Assembly (NCBI GenBank): GCA_020403045.1 | Contig: JADBYK010000028.1 | Coordinates: 1-64,000, forward strand | Direction of reading: 5' to 3' | Source: Cytophagales bacterium | GTDB taxonomy: Bacteria; Bacteroidota; Bacteroidia; Cytophagales; Cyclobacteriaceae | Length of the DNA stretch: 64,000 nucleotides | Shown: positions 15,025 to 63,745 of the stretch, piece after piece | Layout: each line of letters begins with the position of its first letter | How positions within the stretch are numbered: position 1 is the stretch's first letter | Translations under genes and position numbers: made by a program | The notes under the pieces: model-generated | Seen by the model: the letters and a program-made list of their open reading frames with translations, nothing else | Database searches by the model: none | What the model was told of the DNA's origin: nothing

Positions 15025-15041
15025 GTGTTAGGTGAAGAAAA

Positions 15042-15090
15042 TTCTACCTTCTAACTTCTAACTTCTATTTTCTAACTTCTATTTTCTAAT
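15042..15090 (+). repeat. Seven tandem degenerate heptamers (TTCTAnn)
   Basis: Seven consecutive 7-base units fill most of the glpF-glpK gap: TTCTACC, TTCTAAC, TTCTAAC, TTCTATT, TTCTAAC, TTCTATT, TTCTAAT. The first five bases are invariant and the last two vary. It is non-coding and ends about 11 bases before the glpK ATG. The same periodic pattern occurs in other operon gaps of this window. Confidence 0.85.
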
Positions 15091-15101
15091 CTCTTTTTAA
15101 C

Positions 15102-29531: not shown

Positions 29532-29542
29532 GTCTTGGAAGG

Positions 29543-29670
29543 TAAAAGTTAAGAGTTACGAAGTACGATTTTTGTTTAGGGTTTTAAGTCCACTCTTTAT
29601 TCTAAAAAGAGGCTCATAATCATTCTTCGTAAATCTTTACTCGTACTTTATACTTCGTATTTCGTTCTTT
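29543..29670. repeat. Two blocks of degenerate heptamers in the hisB-hisH gap
   Basis: Block A (29543-29570) reads TAAAAGT, TAAGAGT, TACGAAG, TACGATT. Block B (29622-29670) reads ATTCTTC, GTAAATC, TTTACTC, GTACTTT, ATACTTC, GTATTTC, GTTCTTT. Each keeps a 7-base register with conserved positions. The two blocks are roughly inverted relative to each other (TACGAAGTACGA against TCGTACTTTATACTTCGTA), so the transcript could fold. Confidence 0.65.
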
Positions 29671-30790: not shown

Positions 30791-30825
30791 GTGTTAATAC
30801 TATTTTTTTGGTTGTCAGATGCCTG

Positions 30826-30843
30826 CCCCGCCTCAAGCGGAGG
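30826..30843. repeat. GC-rich hairpin in the hisC-hisB gap
   Basis: On the minus strand CTCCGC and GCGGGG flank a TTGAG loop, giving a roughly 6-bp GC-rich stem in an otherwise AT-rich 103-base intercistronic gap. There is no T-run after it, so it is not a terminator. It could stabilise or process the mRNA, or be a remnant of a dispersed palindromic repeat. Confidence 0.35.
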
Positions 30844-30893
30844 AATGGCTGAGATTATTATACCGTTGGGCATAGAGTTTGTTAATCGCCATT

Positions 30894-31928
30894 TCATAAG
30901 TTCGACAGTTCTGAAATTAGCATTTTGTTTTCTTCTGGGGTGCCTATGGTTATCCGCAAACAATTGCCACACAAAAGTACATTGGAACGATCGCGCAGCA
31001 CAATTCCGTTTGATATGAGCGACTGATAAACACTTTTGGCGTTCGTAATCTTAACTAACAAAAAATTGGCTTGCGAAGGGTATACCCTTTGAACAGCCGG
31101 AATTTTTACGAGTTCATTTTCAACAAACTCTCGGGCATCAATGATTTCCGCGATCCATTTGTTTTTTTGTTCGATTTCCTCAAGGCTCTTTAACACAATT
31201 TGTTGAGTGATGCCATTGATGTTGTAAGGAGGTTTTATTTTATTTAATACTGCTATGATCTCTTTGCTGGCAAAGCACATGCCCAAACGTAAGCTGGCAA
31301 GACCCCAGGCCTTAGATAAGGTTTGAAGAATAACGAGGTTGGGGAAGTTATTTAGCAAAGGAATAAAGCCATCATAATTGGTGAAATCAATATAAGCTTC
31401 ATCAACAATTACAATTCCGGGAAATTCTTGTAGTAGAATTCGGATTTTGTCAAGGTCTAGTAAGTTGCCAGAAGGGTTATTGGGGCTGCAAAGAAACAGG
31501 AGCTTGGTATGATCGTCCCACGTCTTTTTTGTTAACTCCAAGTTGATATCAAAGTCTTCTGTGAGCGGAATTGTTTTGATGGCCACTGCATTTATTTCGG
31601 CACTCACCGTGTACATGCCGTAGGTGGGTTGTGGGATGAGTACGTTATCTTGACCGGGTTCACAAAAAGCACGAATCAATAGATCAATAGCTTCGTCACT
31701 GCCATTTCCCAGAAATATTTGTTCTTGGTTGATATTTTTAATCGAGGCAATTTTCTCTTTGAGCTTTTTTTGATGAGGATCAGGGTATCGATTGTACTCA
31801 GTAGGAAATGGGTTTTCGTTCGCATCTAGAAACACGGATGCGTCACCTTTAAAATCATCCCGCGCTGATGAATAAGGTTTCAACTTGGCTACATTAGCCC
31901 TTACCAATTTGTTCAGTTCAAAGTTCAT
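30894..31928 (-). CDS. hisC: Histidinol-phosphate aminotransferase
   Basis: A 344-residue fold-type I PLP enzyme making histidinol phosphate. The PLP-binding Lys is in LSKAWGLASLRLG; the cofactor Asp and Tyr lie in VIVDEAYIDF. It starts near PYSSARDDFKG and is full length. A heptamer tract begins at its start codon and runs to the end of hisD. Confidence 0.95.
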   Translation of the reverse strand: MNFELNKLVRANVAKLKPYSSARDDFKGDASVFLDANENPFPTEYNRYPDPHQKKLKEKIASIKNINQEQIFLGNGSDEAIDLLIRAFCEPGQDNVLIPQPTYGMYTVSAEINAVAIKTIPLTEDFDINLELTKKTWDDHTKLLFLCSPNNPSGNLLDLDKIRILLQEFPGIVIVDEAYIDFTNYDGFIPLLNNFPNLVILQTLSKAWGLASLRLGMCFASKEIIAVLNKIKPPYNINGITQQIVLKSLEEIEQKNKWIAEIIDAREFVENELVKIPAVQRVYPSQANFLLVKITNAKSVYQSLISNGIVLRDRSNVLLCGNCLRITIGTPEENKMLISELSNL

Positions 31929-31969
31929 TCTAAATTCTGAATTCTAAATTCTAAATTCTACTTTCTCCT
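31928..31969. repeat. Six tandem degenerate heptamers (TTCTnnn) between hisD and hisC
   Basis: Read on the + strand: TTCTAAA, TTCTGAA, TTCTAAA, TTCTAAA, TTCTACT, TTCTCCT. The tract spans the whole intergenic gap and touches both the hisC start codon and the last hisD codons. The same TTCT-based register is seen in the glpF-glpK gap. Confidence 0.8.
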
Positions 31970-33232: not shown

Positions 33233-33241
33233 GTGGATTTA

Positions 33242-33277
33242 TTCTAACTTCTAAATTCTTGATTTCTGCATTCTTGT
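33242..33277. repeat. Degenerate heptamers between hisG and hisD
   Basis: Read on the + strand: TTCTAAC, TTCTAAA, TTCTTGA, TTTCTGCA (one extra base), TTCTTGT. It is less regular than the hisD-hisC tract but in the same family. It occupies most of the 56-base gap. Confidence 0.6.
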
Positions 33278-33288
33278 ATCTTTTAAGT

Positions 33289-39802: not shown

Positions 39803-42800
39803 CTATCTTTTCACAATCAGTTTTGTTGATTTGCCAGATTGACCAACCTTGATGATATAAGTGCCCTCTGCTGCCTGATCTAGTGAGACAGAAACTTTCC
39901 ATTGGCCTTTAGGAATGTTGACGTTGCCTTGTTGTCTACCCAATAAATCGAAGAAGCGCACAGGTGTATCGACCTCTACTCTCGCTGGCAATGCGACAGT
40001 GACTTGAGCCATAGCCGGATTTGGAAATACTGAGAGCTCGCTCACGTTAGGATCATCAGACGGTTCACTGCCAGCCGGGGTTTCTTTGCGTGGGCAAAAT
40101 TGATCAAAGCAAGGACAAATGCCGTACATGGCACAAGGATCAGGGTTAGGGTCACAATACTGCTCGTACACGGTTGCTTGCGCAGTACTTTGGCAGCCAT
40201 TCAGGTATGCGGTAACATAGTAGGTGCCGCCTGAGTACACATTGATTGACTGTGTACCCCCCTCACCTGTTGACCACGAAAAATAGGGCGCAGATGAGAC
40301 AGCAGTTAGTGAAGTAGAACTTCCCGAACAAAAGGTAGCACCATCTCCAACTATGTAGACCGATGGCTTCTGATTTATATTGACAGTTAATGTATTACTC
40401 TGTGAGCTGCACAAGGTAATATTGTCAGTCACTTCAACAACATAAAAACCTCCATAGCTTGTTGTGTAAGACGAACTTGTCGCACCGCTTATGTAAGTTT
40501 GATAATTTCTCCACCGATAAGAGTAGTTGGGATTAAATGGCGTTGACAATGACACAGATGAGCCCGAACACAGTGTGACAGGCCCGTAAATGTTTGATGC
40601 TGCAGCTGTGAGGCTCGCGACAGGTGGGGGATTTACAGTAACCGTGGTAGGCGCACTGGCCGCACTCATGCATCCATTGGCATTGGTAACTCTAACTGTG
40701 TAATTGCCTCCACTGCTTACAGTGATGCTCTGAGTGGTTGCGCCCGTTGACCACAGGTAGCTTGAACCACTGTTGGTAGTTAACGTTACAGAGCCTCCCT
40801 GGCAAAATGTGATTGCGCCAGAGGCCGTTATGGTTGCGGTTGGTGAAGGGAAGATCGTAACAGTTGTCGCTGCGCTAGTGGCAGAGCAACCATTGACATT
40901 TGTAACTCGAACTGTGTAATTACCTGCAGTGCCAACAGTTATACTCTGCGTGGTTGCACCCGTGGACCACAAGTAACTAGCCCCAGCAGAAGCAGTAAGA
41001 ATTACCGACCCACCTGGACAGAACGAGGTTGCGCCAGAGGCCGTGATGGTGGCAGTTGGCAGAGGGTTGACTATAACAGTTGTTGCTGAGCTAGTGGCAG
41101 AGCAACCATTGACATTTGTAACTCGAACTGTGTAATTACCTGCTGTGCCAACAGTTATACTTTGTGTGGTTGCACCTGTAGACCACAGATAACTTGAACC
41201 AGTGCTGGCAGTTAACGTTACAGAGCCACCTTGACAAAATGTGGTTGCGCCAGAGGCTGAGATGGTGGCAGTTGGAAAAGGATTTACAATCAAGCTTTGG
41301 GTGGCGGTTGCAGGGCTATACGTTCCATTTCCCGCCTGACTTGCAGTAATTGTTACCGTGCCTGCTGCAAGAGTGGTCACTACGTTTCCTGCCACTGAGG
41401 CAATCGTAGGATTAGAACTAGTATAACTGATAGCCAAACCGGAGCTTGCAGTTGCTGTTAGGTTGACGGTTGCGTTGATGCACGCGCTTGGTAGAGGGTT
41501 GAAGGTAACGGTTTGACTAGCTCGCGGTTCATGCCTTAAAACCGATAGTGTGTTGCTACCATAATTCGTCACTGCAAGGTCAGCCTTTCCATCCCCGTCC
41601 AAATCACCGATGGCTAATGAATAGGGACCAGAACCTGTTGCAAAGTCTGTTTTCGCTTCATAGCTGACTGTACCGGGCGTTCCGGTGTTGCGGAATACCG
41701 ATACCGTGTTGCTATTTATATTTGCCACCGCCAGGTCAGCCTTGCCGTCCCCGTCCAGGTCACCGATGGCCACTGATCCAGGAGCTAAGCCTGTTTCAAA
41801 ATCTCTTTTCGCTGCATAGCTAATCGTCCCGGGCATTCCCGTGTTGCGGAAAACCGATACCGTGCTGATACCACCATTCGCCACCGCCAGGTCAGCCTTT
41901 CCATCCCCGTCTAAATCACCGATGGCTAATGATTTAGGGCCAGAACCTGTTGCAAAATCTATTTTTGCTGCATAACTGATCGTCCCGGGCGTTCCCGTGT
42001 TGCGCAAAACTGATATCGTGTTACCATCAAAGTTCGCTACCGCCAAGTCAGCCTTTGAATCCCCGTCCAAATCACCGATGGCTAATGAAACAGGACCAAG
42101 ACCTGTTGCGAAATCAATTTTCGCTGCATAGCTAATCGTCCCGGGCATTCCCGTGTTACGGAAAATCGATAGCGTACCATTGCCACCGTTCGCCACTGCC
42201 AAGTCAGCCCTTCCATCCCCGTCTAAATCACCGATGGCAACTGAAGAAGGAAAAGCACTTATTGCAAAATCTATTTTCGCTGCATAACTAATCGCCCCGG
42301 GCGTTCCGGTGTTACGGAAAACTGATAGCGTGTAACTATTATAATTCGTCACCGCCAAGTCAGCCTTTCCGTCCCCGTCCAAATCACCGATGGTTACTGA
42401 TTTAGGACCAGCACCCGTTGCAAAATCAATTTTCGCTGCATAGCTGATCGTACTGGTCGTTCCAGTGTTGCGGAAAACCGATAAAGTGTTGCTACTAAAA
42501 TTCGTCATCGCCAAGTCAGCCTTTCCATCCCCGTCTAAATCCCCGATAGCTATTGAACCAGGACTCGCTCCGGTTGCAAAATCTACTTTAGGAAGAAAAC
42601 TAGTTACATCCACTTTTCCCCACCCGGGGTAAGTAGTTGAAAATGGAAATTTGGAATACCCCACCAGTCCACTCACCAGTACAGTAATGGGCTGATAAGT
42701 TGCCCCTGTGGGTACGGTAACGGTTAGTTGTGTGGCGGTTGCAGCCGTTACCGTAGCTCGCATAGCTCCAAAATAAACGATGTTGTTGGCAGGGGTGGAA

Positions 42801-44533
42801 TTAAACCCGGTGCCGGTGATCGTTACAGCGGTGCCTACGGGACCGCTGGTTGGGGTGAAGCCGGTTATTTGCGGCAGCGGACCAACGAATAGAAGTTGCT
42901 GTACCGCACTTGCTGGAAGAAACGTAGAATTTCCTCCTTGAAAGGCTGTTATCAAAGTATACCCTCTTCCTACTATAGTAACTGTATTGCCTGTGATGGT
43001 GGCCACAGTTGTATTGCTGCTCATGTATGAAATAGGTAGTCCGGATGACGAAGAAGCAGTAAGTGTGAAGGGTGAATCTCCTAATGCTCTATTGGGCAAT
43101 GGATTAAACGTAATGGTTTGACTAGGTCGCGGTTCATGCCATAAAAAAGACAGCGTATTGCCATTCATTACCGCCAGGTCTGCCTTTCCATCCCCGTCCA
43201 AATCACCGATGGCTAATGAAACAGGACCAAGACCTGTTGCGAAATCTATTTTCGCTGCATAGCTAATCGTCCCGGGCGTTCCCGTGTTGCGGAAAACCGA
43301 TACCGTGCTGCTACCACCATTCGTCACCGCCAGGTCAGCTTTTCCATCCCCATCCAAATCACCGATAGCTAATGAATTAGGATCAGAATCTGCTGCGAAG
43401 TCTATTTTCGCTGCATAGCTAATAGTCCCGGGCGTTCCCGTGTTTCGCAAAACCGATATTGTACTGCTACCACTATTAGCCACCGCCAGGTCGGCCTTTC
43501 CATCCCCGTCTAAATCACCGATGGCCACTCGATGCGCATAAAAATTTGTTGCAAAATCTATTTTCGCTGCATAGCTAATCGTCCCAGACGTTCCCGTGTT
43601 GCGCAAAACCGATATTCTATTGCTACCACTACTAGCCACCGCCAGGTCGGCCTTTCCATCACCGTCCAAATCACCGATGCCAACTGAAGCGGGATATAAA
43701 CCTGTTGGAAAATCTATTTTCGCTGCATAGCTAATCGTCCCAGGCGTTCCCGTGTTGCGGAAAACTGACACTGTATTATGACTGTAATTTGTCACCGCCA
43801 AATCAGTTCTTCCATCCTGGTCCAAATCACCGAAGGCTATTGAACGAGGACTAGAACCTGTTGCAAAATCTATTTTCGCTGCATAGCTAATCGCTCCGGG
43901 CGTTCCGGTGTTACGAAAAACCGATATCGTGTTGCTACCGCGATTCGTCACCGCCAGGTCGGCCTTTCCATCCCCATCCAAATCACCGATGGCTACTGAA
44001 GCGGGATATAAACCTGTTGGAAAATTTATTTGTGCTGCATAACTAATTACACCAGATGTTCCCGTGTTACGGAAAATCGACACTACATTAATACTAGTTG
44101 TCACCGCTAAGTCAGCCTTTCCATCTCCATCCAAATCACCGATGGCTAATGAAGTATGAAATGTACCTGTTGCAACATCTACCTTTGGAAGAAAACTAGT
44201 TGCATCCACTTTTCCCCACCCAGGATAAGTGGTTGAGAAGGGAAATTTAGAATACCCCACCAGTCCATTCACCAGTAAAGTTATGGGTTGATAGGTTGCC
44301 CCTATGGGTACGGCAACATTTAGTTGTGTAGCCGTTGCAGTCGTTACTGCAGCTCGGGTAGCTCCAAAGTAAACGATATTGTTGACCGGGGTAGAACTAA
44401 ACCCGGTGCCGCTGATGGTGACAGAGGTGCCTACCGGGCCGCTGGTGGGGGTGAAGCTTGTGATTACTGGCTGTGATAGCACCATAGTGCTAAAAACTAA
44501 CATTAAAGATAAAGGCAGTAAAAGTGTTTTCAT
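39803..44533 (-). CDS. Giant FG-GAP/VCBS and IPT repeat surface protein with T9SS sorting domain
   Basis: A 1576-residue secreted protein. After the signal peptide comes an IPT/TIG domain, seven 52-residue FG-GAP/VCBS units each with the Ca2+-binding DLDGDGKADL, and an Ig-like linker; this whole module then occurs a second time (IPT, seven units, Ig-like BIG2). Three near-identical PKD/Ig-like units of about 70 residues follow (WSTGATTQSI in each), two more divergent ones, a Cys-rich segment (CPCFDQFC) and a T9SS type A sorting domain (LSVFPNPA to LIVKR). It is likely a cell-surface adhesin or stalk-like protein with no catalytic domain seen. It is transcribed alone. Confidence 0.92.
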   Translation of the reverse strand: MKTLLLPLSLMLVFSTMVLSQPVITSFTPTSGPVGTSVTISGTGFSSTPVNNIVYFGATRAAVTTATATQLNVAVPIGATYQPITLLVNGLVGYSKFPFSTTYPGWGKVDATSFLPKVDVATGTFHTSLAIGDLDGDGKADLAVTTSINVVSIFRNTGTSGVISYAAQINFPTGLYPASVAIGDLDGDGKADLAVTNRGSNTISVFRNTGTPGAISYAAKIDFATGSSPRSIAFGDLDQDGRTDLAVTNYSHNTVSVFRNTGTPGTISYAAKIDFPTGLYPASVGIGDLDGDGKADLAVASSGSNRISVLRNTGTSGTISYAAKIDFATNFYAHRVAIGDLDGDGKADLAVANSGSSTISVLRNTGTPGTISYAAKIDFAADSDPNSLAIGDLDGDGKADLAVTNGGSSTVSVFRNTGTPGTISYAAKIDFATGLGPVSLAIGDLDGDGKADLAVMNGNTLSFLWHEPRPSQTITFNPLPNRALGDSPFTLTASSSSGLPISYMSSNTTVATITGNTVTIVGRGYTLITAFQGGNSTFLPASAVQQLLFVGPLPQITGFTPTSGPVGTAVTITGTGFNSTPANNIVYFGAMRATVTAATATQLTVTVPTGATYQPITVLVSGLVGYSKFPFSTTYPGWGKVDVTSFLPKVDFATGASPGSIAIGDLDGDGKADLAMTNFSSNTLSVFRNTGTTSTISYAAKIDFATGAGPKSVTIGDLDGDGKADLAVTNYNSYTLSVFRNTGTPGAISYAAKIDFAISAFPSSVAIGDLDGDGRADLAVANGGNGTLSIFRNTGMPGTISYAAKIDFATGLGPVSLAIGDLDGDSKADLAVANFDGNTISVLRNTGTPGTISYAAKIDFATGSGPKSLAIGDLDGDGKADLAVANGGISTVSVFRNTGMPGTISYAAKRDFETGLAPGSVAIGDLDGDGKADLAVANINSNTVSVFRNTGTPGTVSYEAKTDFATGSGPYSLAIGDLDGDGKADLAVTNYGSNTLSVLRHEPRASQTVTFNPLPSACINATVNLTATASSGLAISYTSSNPTIASVAGNVVTTLAAGTVTITASQAGNGTYSPATATQSLIVNPFPTATISASGATTFCQGGSVTLTASTGSSYLWSTGATTQSITVGTAGNYTVRVTNVNGCSATSSATTVIVNPLPTATITASGATSFCPGGSVILTASAGASYLWSTGATTQSITVGTAGNYTVRVTNVNGCSATSAATTVTIFPSPTATITASGAITFCQGGSVTLTTNSGSSYLWSTGATTQSITVSSGGNYTVRVTNANGCMSAASAPTTVTVNPPPVASLTAAASNIYGPVTLCSGSSVSLSTPFNPNYSYRWRNYQTYISGATSSSYTTSYGGFYVVEVTDNITLCSSQSNTLTVNINQKPSVYIVGDGATFCSGSSTSLTAVSSAPYFSWSTGEGGTQSINVYSGGTYYVTAYLNGCQSTAQATVYEQYCDPNPDPCAMYGICPCFDQFCPRKETPAGSEPSDDPNVSELSVFPNPAMAQVTVALPARVEVDTPVRFFDLLGRQQGNVNIPKGQWKVSVSLDQAAEGTYIIKVGQSGKSTKLIVKR
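41520..42595 (-). repeat. Seven-copy 156-bp FG-GAP repeat array, second block
   Basis: Seven tandem units of 52 codons, each carrying the DLDGDGKADL-type loop and RNTGTPGTISYAA-like linker. Neighbouring units are highly similar at DNA level (for example cgtcccgggcgttcccgtg recurs), so the array is prone to recombination. Confidence 0.85.
43140..44195 (-). repeat. Seven-copy 156-bp FG-GAP repeat array, first block
   Basis: Seven units in the same 52-codon register as the second block. Together with the preceding IPT domain and the following Ig-like linker it forms a module that is repeated once in the protein. Confidence 0.85.
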
Positions 44534-62656: not shown

Positions 62657-62667
62657 TAGTCCGTTGT

Positions 62668-62722
62668 CAGTTCCCGGTTACCGGTTACCGGTTTCCTGTT
62701 ACCGGTAACTGGCAACTGATTT
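62668..62722. repeat. Seven tandem degenerate heptamers and long hairpin in the thrA-thrB gap
   Basis: From 62674: CCGGTTA, CCGGTTA, CCGGTTT, CCTGTTA, CCGGTAA, CTGGCAA, CTGATTT. The tract is also self-complementary: 62668-62691 and 62695-62718 form 24-base arms with four mismatches around a TTT loop. The mix of strict 7-base register and dyad symmetry sets it apart from the TTCT-type tracts. Confidence 0.8.
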
Positions 62723-62764
62723 GGATTTTTAGAAGAAGTTAATTAAAACACAAAGATTTATAGA

Positions 62765-63697
62765 ATGAAAGTAAGAACATTTGCACCGGCTACTGTGGCC
62801 AATGTTTGTTGTGGTTTTGATGTGCTGGGGTTTGCAGTTGATTTTCCGGGCGATGAAGTAATGCTCACGTTGAATATGAGCCAAGAGGTTACCCTATCAA
62901 AAATAGTAGGTGATGGAGGCCGACTTCCACTCGATGCTTCTAAAAATACAGCAGGCGTTGCTGTCCAGTCGTTTCTAAAAAGTATTGGCAAGCAGCAAGG
63001 TGTTGAGATAGAATTGTATAAAAATCTTCCACTGGGTAGCGGCATGGGTTCAAGTGCCGCGAGTGGTGTGGCAGCGTTAGTGGCGATCAATCATTTGATG
63101 GGTAACCCGCTGACGCGTGAACAACTAGTCGTTCATGCCATGGAAGCCGAAAGGATCGCATGCGGGTCGGCTCATGCCGATAATGTAGCTCCTTGTTTAA
63201 TGGGTGGATTTGTACTAGTGCGCGATTACAATCCTTTGGATGTTATCAAAATCCCAGCTACAAAAAATCTTTATGCCACTTTGGTTCACCCACAGATTGA
63301 ATTAAAAACATCAGACTCTCGCAGAGTGTTGAAGCCGACAGTCAATTTGAAAGACGCTATTGCCCAAACAGGTAATATTGCCGGGCTAATGATTGGGTTA
63401 ACGAGTAAAGATTACTCGCTTATTAGCCGTTCGTTGCAGGATAAGATTGCCGAGCCGATACGCTCCGCGTTTATTCCTGGCTTTGAACAAGTAAGGGAGG
63501 CAGCAGTAAGGGCTGGTGCATTGGGCTGTGGTATTTCCGGTTCAGGCCCCACGATGTTTGCATTAAGCACAGATCACGCAACGGCAACAAAAGTAGGAGA
63601 GGTGATGCAGCTTGAGTTTTTAAAAAACAATTTGAAGAGTGAAATGTATGTGTCGAAGGTGAATCAGGAGGGGGCGAGGATTTTGGATGAGAAATAG
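62765..63697 (+). CDS. thrB: Homoserine kinase
   Basis: A 310-residue GHMP kinase making O-phosphohomoserine. The ATP loop is in LPLGSGMGSSAASGVAA, the N-terminal PATVANVCCGFDVLG is typical, and GCGISGSGPTMFAL is motif 3. It is second in the thr operon, followed after 48 bases (a heptamer tract) by thrC. Confidence 0.96.
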   Translation: MKVRTFAPATVANVCCGFDVLGFAVDFPGDEVMLTLNMSQEVTLSKIVGDGGRLPLDASKNTAGVAVQSFLKSIGKQQGVEIELYKNLPLGSGMGSSAASGVAALVAINHLMGNPLTREQLVVHAMEAERIACGSAHADNVAPCLMGGFVLVRDYNPLDVIKIPATKNLYATLVHPQIELKTSDSRRVLKPTVNLKDAIAQTGNIAGLMIGLTSKDYSLISRSLQDKIAEPIRSAFIPGFEQVREAAVRAGALGCGISGSGPTMFALSTDHATATKVGEVMQLEFLKNNLKSEMYVSKVNQEGARILDEK

Positions 63698-63739
63698 AAT
63701 ACAGTATTTAGAAGTCAGAAGCTAGAATTCAGAATATAT
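63698..63739. repeat. Six tandem degenerate heptamers in the thrB-thrC gap
   Basis: AATACAG, TATTTAG, AAGTCAG, AAGCTAG, AATTCAG, AATATAT. Read on the other strand these are CTGAATT, CTAGCTT, CTGACTT and so on, the same TTCTnnn family seen in the his operon and glpF-glpK gaps. Confidence 0.75.
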
Positions 63740-63745
63740 TGAAGA

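Follow-up and report, generated by a model that had tools for sequence, protein, structure and literature searches.

In the genome of this Cytophagales bacterium, many gaps between genes hold degenerate arrays with a 7-nt period that begin just past a stop codon, often form hairpins, and, when close relatives are compared, have been exchanged whole for hairpins of another spelling. We give about even chances to the reading that the arrays are functional, REP-like RNA hairpins at the 3' ends of genes, exchanged as whole units. We analyzed a window of 64,000 nucleotides, i.e., the whole stretch of DNA presented above, together with 1.32 Mb more of the 4.02 Mb MAG assembly. This sample of 1.38 Mb represents 34% of the genome.

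Seven-base arrays in the window and across the genome

The earlier note on this DNA had pointed to heptamer tracts in six gaps between co-directional genes. All six proved real and strictly of period 7, since the lag-7 signal was significant in each of them (p=0.001, 1000 dinucleotide shuffles), with z values of 5.2 in glpF-glpK, 4.6 in hisB-hisH, 5.7 in hisD-hisC, 3.7 in hisG-hisD, 5.7 in thrA-thrB, and 3.5 in thrB-thrC. At the remaining lags between 4 and 12, z stayed below 3 in all of these gaps (2.9 for lag 6 in thrA-thrB). The identities of glpF, glpK, hisC, hisD, thrA, and thrB are backed by NCBIfam, and the search of the window against Rfam gave zero matches. A lag scan of the window found strong lag-7 tracts at three places, one lag-5 tract elsewhere, and none at lags 6, 8, and 9. 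On the reverse strand (39803-44533), a 1576-aa ORF has long tandem repeats of 156 bp and 216 bp, whose copies match at ~79%.

The glpF-glpK array (15042-15090, forward strand) lies in a gap spanning 15025-15101, and 11 nt separate its last unit from the start codon of glpK. Its seven units (in order, TTCTACC, TTCTAAC, TTCTAAC, TTCTATT, TTCTAAC, TTCTATT, and TTCTAAT) have TTCTA in common, in agreement with the earlier note, and TRF gives it period 7 with a score of 61. The array is one-armed (fold z -0.1). Three other gaps are also one-armed: hisD-hisC, where four AATTTAG units take up the whole gap (31929-31957, reverse strand; TRF 31927-31960), hisG-hisD, with degenerate AGAATTT / AGAAGTT units (33233-33288, reverse strand), and thrB-thrC, with AGAAGTC / AGAATTC heptamers (63698-63745, forward strand; TRF 63696-63735). 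The remaining two are two-armed. In hisB-hisH (29532-29668, reverse strand; units GAAGTAC / TTACGAA), a 5' arm of GAAGTAC type and a 3' arm of TCGTACTTCGTAAC type give a predicted hairpin of -30.4 kcal/mol (fold z -4.9). In thrA-thrB (62657-62764, forward strand; TRF 62670-62706), the hairpin is of GTTACCG type, is paired over ~62658-62727, and has a predicted energy of -38.5 kcal/mol (fold z -5.5). The TTCT core once proposed for the tracts is found, on either strand, in four of the gaps, but these two strong hairpins belong to other families.

The hisC-hisB gap gave no lag-7 signal in the dinucleotide-shuffle test. It contains a 103-nt element (30791-30893) with a CCTCCGCTTGAGGCGGGG palindrome, a dispersed repeat distinct from the heptamers and not of period 7, pieces of which match many sites across the genomes of the genus. 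The element is shared with the sister genome G419 at 0.93 identity, and G420 has a junction of -4 nt.

The genome-wide excess of 7-base periodicity over shuffled sequence that had been anticipated is real and specific to 7. Among the 341 co-directional gaps of 40-200 nt, 14.7% had z>3 at lag 7, the corresponding values for lags 6 and 8 being 0% and 2.3%. Tracts of 28 bp with at least 75% lag match were found at lag 7 in 33 gaps (29 co-directional, 1 divergent, and 3 convergent) and in 0-4 gaps for each other lag from 4 to 13, with lag 14, the double period, also increased; shuffled gaps gave zero such tracts at lag 7. Under a looser tract rule, arrays occurred in 42 of the 512 co-directional gaps, 5 of the 63 convergent ones, and 3 of the 141 divergent ones. 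They are more frequent in co-directional than in divergent gaps (Fisher p=0.008) and equally frequent in co-directional and convergent ones (p=1). Since convergent gaps carry their equal share and divergent gaps few, the arrays go with the 3' ends of genes and not with operons alone. This rules out the confinement to operon gaps suggested by the earlier note, which had counted equal presence in divergent and convergent gaps against its reading: the scarcity stands for the former and fails for the latter.

The arrays do not form a single TTCT family either. We identified 33 different consensus units in 58 arrays, TTCTAAC being one among dozens of spellings, such as TTCAAGA, AGTCGAT, GTCTTAC, GTTACCG, GTTGTTC/AACGAAC, GAGATTT, AAGCCAC, and GAAGTAC. 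So many unit families exclude a family built on the TTCTAAC motif alone. When pooled with free rotation and strand, the units have a common pattern (-8.25 bits per unit, compared with -9.56 for shuffled units and -9.90 for random intergenic heptamers), which may be caused in part by the recurrence of a few families; a cross-family motif derived from nine cluster representatives was no better than shuffled. GGG, looked for as the mark of a G-quadruplex-type unit, is absent from every listed consensus, and so is TAACTGA as a consensus in the 58 arrays; TAACTGA-like units are present in one relative (L055). The longest array in the genome sample (L130, 8195-8352) has ~20 heptamers, mostly TTCTAAC, and adjoins a start codon. 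Its terminal units are identical in a row, which has the appearance of a recent expansion.

Hairpins past the stop codon

The earlier note did not mention that many gaps hold a complementary second array, nor that sequences differ wholesale between close relatives. An array often runs on into its complement, so that the gap becomes a hairpin: 36 of the 58 array gaps (about 60%) are two-armed and 22 are one-armed. The mean fold z is -2.46 in gaps with lag-7 signal versus -0.74 in the others (p=1.2e-6). In 20 of the 58 array gaps, the gap's own 3' half complements the 5' half better than 95% of the 3' halves of other array gaps. The layout is a stop codon, a degenerate heptamer array, usually a short loop and the complementary array, a free stretch, and the next start codon. 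In the 31 two-armed co-directional gaps, the hairpin has ~26 pairs, starts at a median of 2 nt past the stop (IQR 1-5), and ends at a median of 16 nt upstream of the next start, as called from our own hexamer-scored ORFs, whose start codons may be off. Arms with an 8-nt period make up a minor sister class (L099, 13218-13293; L161, 15032-15131; and the G419 orthologue of L156, 11349).

Hairpins past stop codons, in convergent gaps as well, could be transcription terminators or attenuators. However, a T-run (TTTTT) is found 3' of the hairpin in only 1 of the 31 gaps, the hairpins sit within the his, thr, and ilv operons, and ordinary terminators, which lack the period, form a separate listing in the same genome. 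The rarity of the T-run rules out intrinsic terminators, and a terminator or attenuator role in general seems extremely improbable.

The elements are more reminiscent of the REP/BIME elements of enterobacteria, palindromic hairpins past stop codons of which many lie within 20 nt of the ORF end (PMC12306157). As in REPs, the hairpin is extragenic and near the upstream stop (median 2 nt, n=31), but the conserved, many-copy palindrome is missing: the arms are period-7 arrays without identical copies. Across aligned elements, 1 base pair was altered on both sides, 10 were altered on one side, 16 were broken, and 216 were unchanged. These counts indicate no clear point-level selection for pairing and, compensation being weak, we do not claim it as proof of a selected RNA structure.

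Whole replacement between close relatives

The sister genome G419 aligns with ours at about 84-98% depending on the region, its coding flanks are mostly 90-97% identical, and in several gaps its hairpin, of about the same length, consists of entirely different heptamers (octamers in one case). We compared 63 orthologous gaps, 56 of them of at least 25 nt, a small number of pairs for which the G419 statistics are based on about 0.3 Mb. Gaps with an array in either genome (n=20) had a median identity of 0.73, with 45% below 0.65. Non-array gaps (n=36) had a median identity of 0.96, with 14% below 0.65, and several of these divergent cases are hairpins with degenerate 7- or 8-nt arms. The median identity of the flanks was 91-94%. 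Differently spelled hairpins are found in the two genomes on the ilvD side and in ilvC-ilvA (this operon was typed with Pfam), at L160 5346, and at L156 11349, where one genome has a heptamer hairpin and the other an octamer one. In G419, the genes at the counterpart of the hisB-hisH junction overlap by 4 nt.

When G420 served as outgroup, two gaps had an element kept between it and G419 (0.91 and 0.95), and one gap had an element kept between it and our genome (0.90). By this criterion, replacement occurred twice in our lineage and once in that of G419, i.e., either lineage can be affected. At ilvC-ilvA, G419 was probably replaced a second time, the spelling being common to our genome and G420 at 0.71. 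In the three gaps with a kept element, the latter is 0.90-0.95 identical, compared with 76-90% for coding flanks. As for a comparison with phase-variation SSRs, unit-number differences do occur between species, and the ilvH-ilvC element has 123 nt in our genome versus 151 nt in G419, where each arm is longer by 14 nt, exactly two heptamers. Across the genus, the his and thr gaps fall into tight ones of -4 to 12 nt and expanded ones, which often have species-specific heptamers. Different heptamers occupy hisD-hisC in G420, G417, and G418, and hisG-hisD in G420 and G421; the latter gap is only 2-12 nt long in several other species, and several relatives have a thrA-thrB gap of -2 to 10 nt. These orthologous gaps fit the suggestion of the earlier note that the tracts do not result from simple recent slippage but are maintained or repeatedly regenerated.

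The weakness of point-level compensation makes a neutral footprint a serious rival. Replication slippage in steps of 7 nt, with strand-switch copying at quasi-palindromes, would (re)build arrays and hairpins in free DNA, and selection would only clear coding and promoter DNA. This is in line with the freedom of sequence, the fast turnover, the changes of copy number in steps of 7, and the ratio of 1 pair altered on both sides to 16 broken; purifying selection alone would account for the absence of arrays in divergent gaps and coding DNA. Heptamers also predominate across many phyla according to the SPADE survey (PMC6344855), and an explanation by polymerase contacts has been proposed, as cited in PMC4692102. 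However, the swap of a whole gap in a single step, between flanks 95-97% identical, is unlike gradual slippage. In addition, replaced gaps retain the hairpin form and a similar length, kept elements are conserved equally to or above coding flanks, the units have a common pattern, and the usual onset 1-5 nt past the stop is not predicted. We counted in favor of the 3'-end hairpin that several replaced gaps keep a hairpin of period 7 or 8, and against it the weak pair compensation, the 22 of the 58 array gaps that are one-armed, including glpF-glpK, and the many relatives without an element at the equivalent junction. Since pairs are broken by point changes no less often than they are preserved, and the element is missing in many relatives, we hold a function to be evenly poised and the neutral footprint to be a real possibility, short of probable.

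Replacement could also reflect a mobile palindromic family of REP type, moved by a Y1/RAYT transposase and inserting past stop codons. It would explain the REP-like position and hairpin form, and the genome has four Y1_Tnp (PF01797) matches, three of them above the cut-off. Yet the elements have no common sequence, and insertion alone fails to explain the exact exchange of one hairpin for another. Neither our genome nor 21 genomes of the genus contained a near-identical donor for the new ilvD-side hairpin, the best other copy of this recently replaced element being 81% over 63 nt; no donor was found for a copy-paste element with resident donors. We regard mobility of this kind as unlikely. The PF01797 matches (L301, L302, L303, and L304) comprise one of 148 aa, the size of an IS200 transposase, and three whose frames are longer and similar in size to RAYTs. 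A local DNA repeat with MLDERWTLLTLHDDFRPCWCCAKEKR-like copies adjoins the Y1 transposase-like gene of L303 (2044-2427).

Proposed role, known repeats, and other lineages

REPs of E. coli are held to stabilize the 3' ends of mRNAs. The heptad hairpins would most likely act in the mRNA as a similar barrier past the stop codon, protecting the 3' end of the upstream cistron and keeping the ribosome that finishes a gene apart from the next gene's SD-less initiation region. E. coli REPs located within 15 nt of the stop reduce translation (PMC12306157), and Bacteroidetes, which lack SD, tune initiation through mRNA structure (PMC6847099). In such a hairpin, structure would count and spelling hardly. 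More tentatively, the arms may be built through 7-nt slippage and strand switching, by which one arm would serve as template for the other, and the entire element may at times be swapped for a new one in a single step. One-armed arrays, e.g., in glpF-glpK, would then be half-built or half-lost elements. In a bolder and doubtful version, intercistronic hairpins would be made de novo past stop codons by a machinery dedicated to this task, either a polymerase or a repair pathway, that advances in steps of 7 nt (at times 8 nt) and copies arm onto arm. The genome would replace them continually under selection for structure, and function would hence reside in the period-7 duplex, not in the sequence.

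Alternatively, the arrays might bind a repeat-reading RNA- or DNA-binding protein (S1-, Csp-, or Csr-like) acting in the translation of the downstream gene, a role proposed for TAACTGA arrays in Beggiatoaceae (PMC4679880). One-armed arrays near a start codon, in glpF-glpK and several other gaps, and the pattern common to units across arrays are compatible with this role. It is nevertheless quite improbable given the dozens of unrelated spellings per genome in both orientations, the equal frequency of arrays in convergent gaps, and the swapped spelling at orthologous sites.

Intergenic heptamer arrays are already published (PMC6344855, PMC4679880, and PMC4692102), including inverted G-rich pairs in Xanthomonas, with no agreed function. 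Our tracts match intergenic heptamer SSRs of the LSSR/STRR type, i.e., head-to-tail 7-nt units over-represented relative to other periods. In the SPADE survey, heptamers outnumber all other intergenic short tandem repeats across many prokaryotes, and nothing is stated to point clearly to their function (PMC6344855); heptamer repeats of prokaryotes in general were also reported by Mrazek 2007, as cited in PMC4679880. These surveys are descriptive; pairing, placement at 3' ends, and replacement between relatives are features of the arrays described here. The GGGAATC repeats of Xanthomonas and GGGGAYT repeats of Nostoc (Rehm et al. 2015, PMC4692102) are, like ours, intergenic heptamer arrays mostly in co-directional gaps and less often in divergent ones (in Xanthomonas, 16% convergent and 7-8% divergent). 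They form inverted pairs in 70-75 cases, and between two species their type is constant and their length variable (PMC4692102). They differ in having a single, G-quadruplex-forming unit per genome, whereas here we find dozens of non-G4 units, swapped between sister species. The TAACTGA arrays of Beggiatoaceae, Cyanobacteria, and five Bacteroidetes (MacGregor 2015, PMC4679880) are likewise intergenic direct repeats of heptamers, many just 5' of start codons, and some long Bacteroidetes arrays are missing at the equivalent place in relatives. That study follows a single unit; hairpin pairing and exchange of spelling are seen here. A literature search of incomplete coverage gave no account of a genome with many unit families, of heptamer units that pair in Bacteroidota to form hairpins near stop codons, or of sister species exchanging whole hairpins that keep their form.

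The preference of bacteria for seven-base repeats becomes testable through 3'-end pairing, exclusion from divergent gaps, a constant period with swapped spelling, and sister genomes whose unrelated hairpins in one operon gap are about equally long. Should selection act on structure alone, the operons of Bacteroidota would carry an intercistronic RNA element invisible to alignment-based searches.

In the loci around glpF from 58 Bacteroidota contigs, 7.1% of the co-directional gaps had lag 7, compared with at most 2.1% for any other lag from 4 to 12; in Bacilli loci, the lag-7 signal was found in 0 of 92. Tandems of TTCTRAC were present in 31 of the 119 genomes of the family and 52 of the 297 genomes of the phylum, and the backward-read control was also present, less often. 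In relatives, the glpF-glpK gap carries GTCTTAC (L011-L013), TGACTTC (L034), or, together with a complementary 5' arm, GACCATC (L014 and L047) and AACTAGC (L016).
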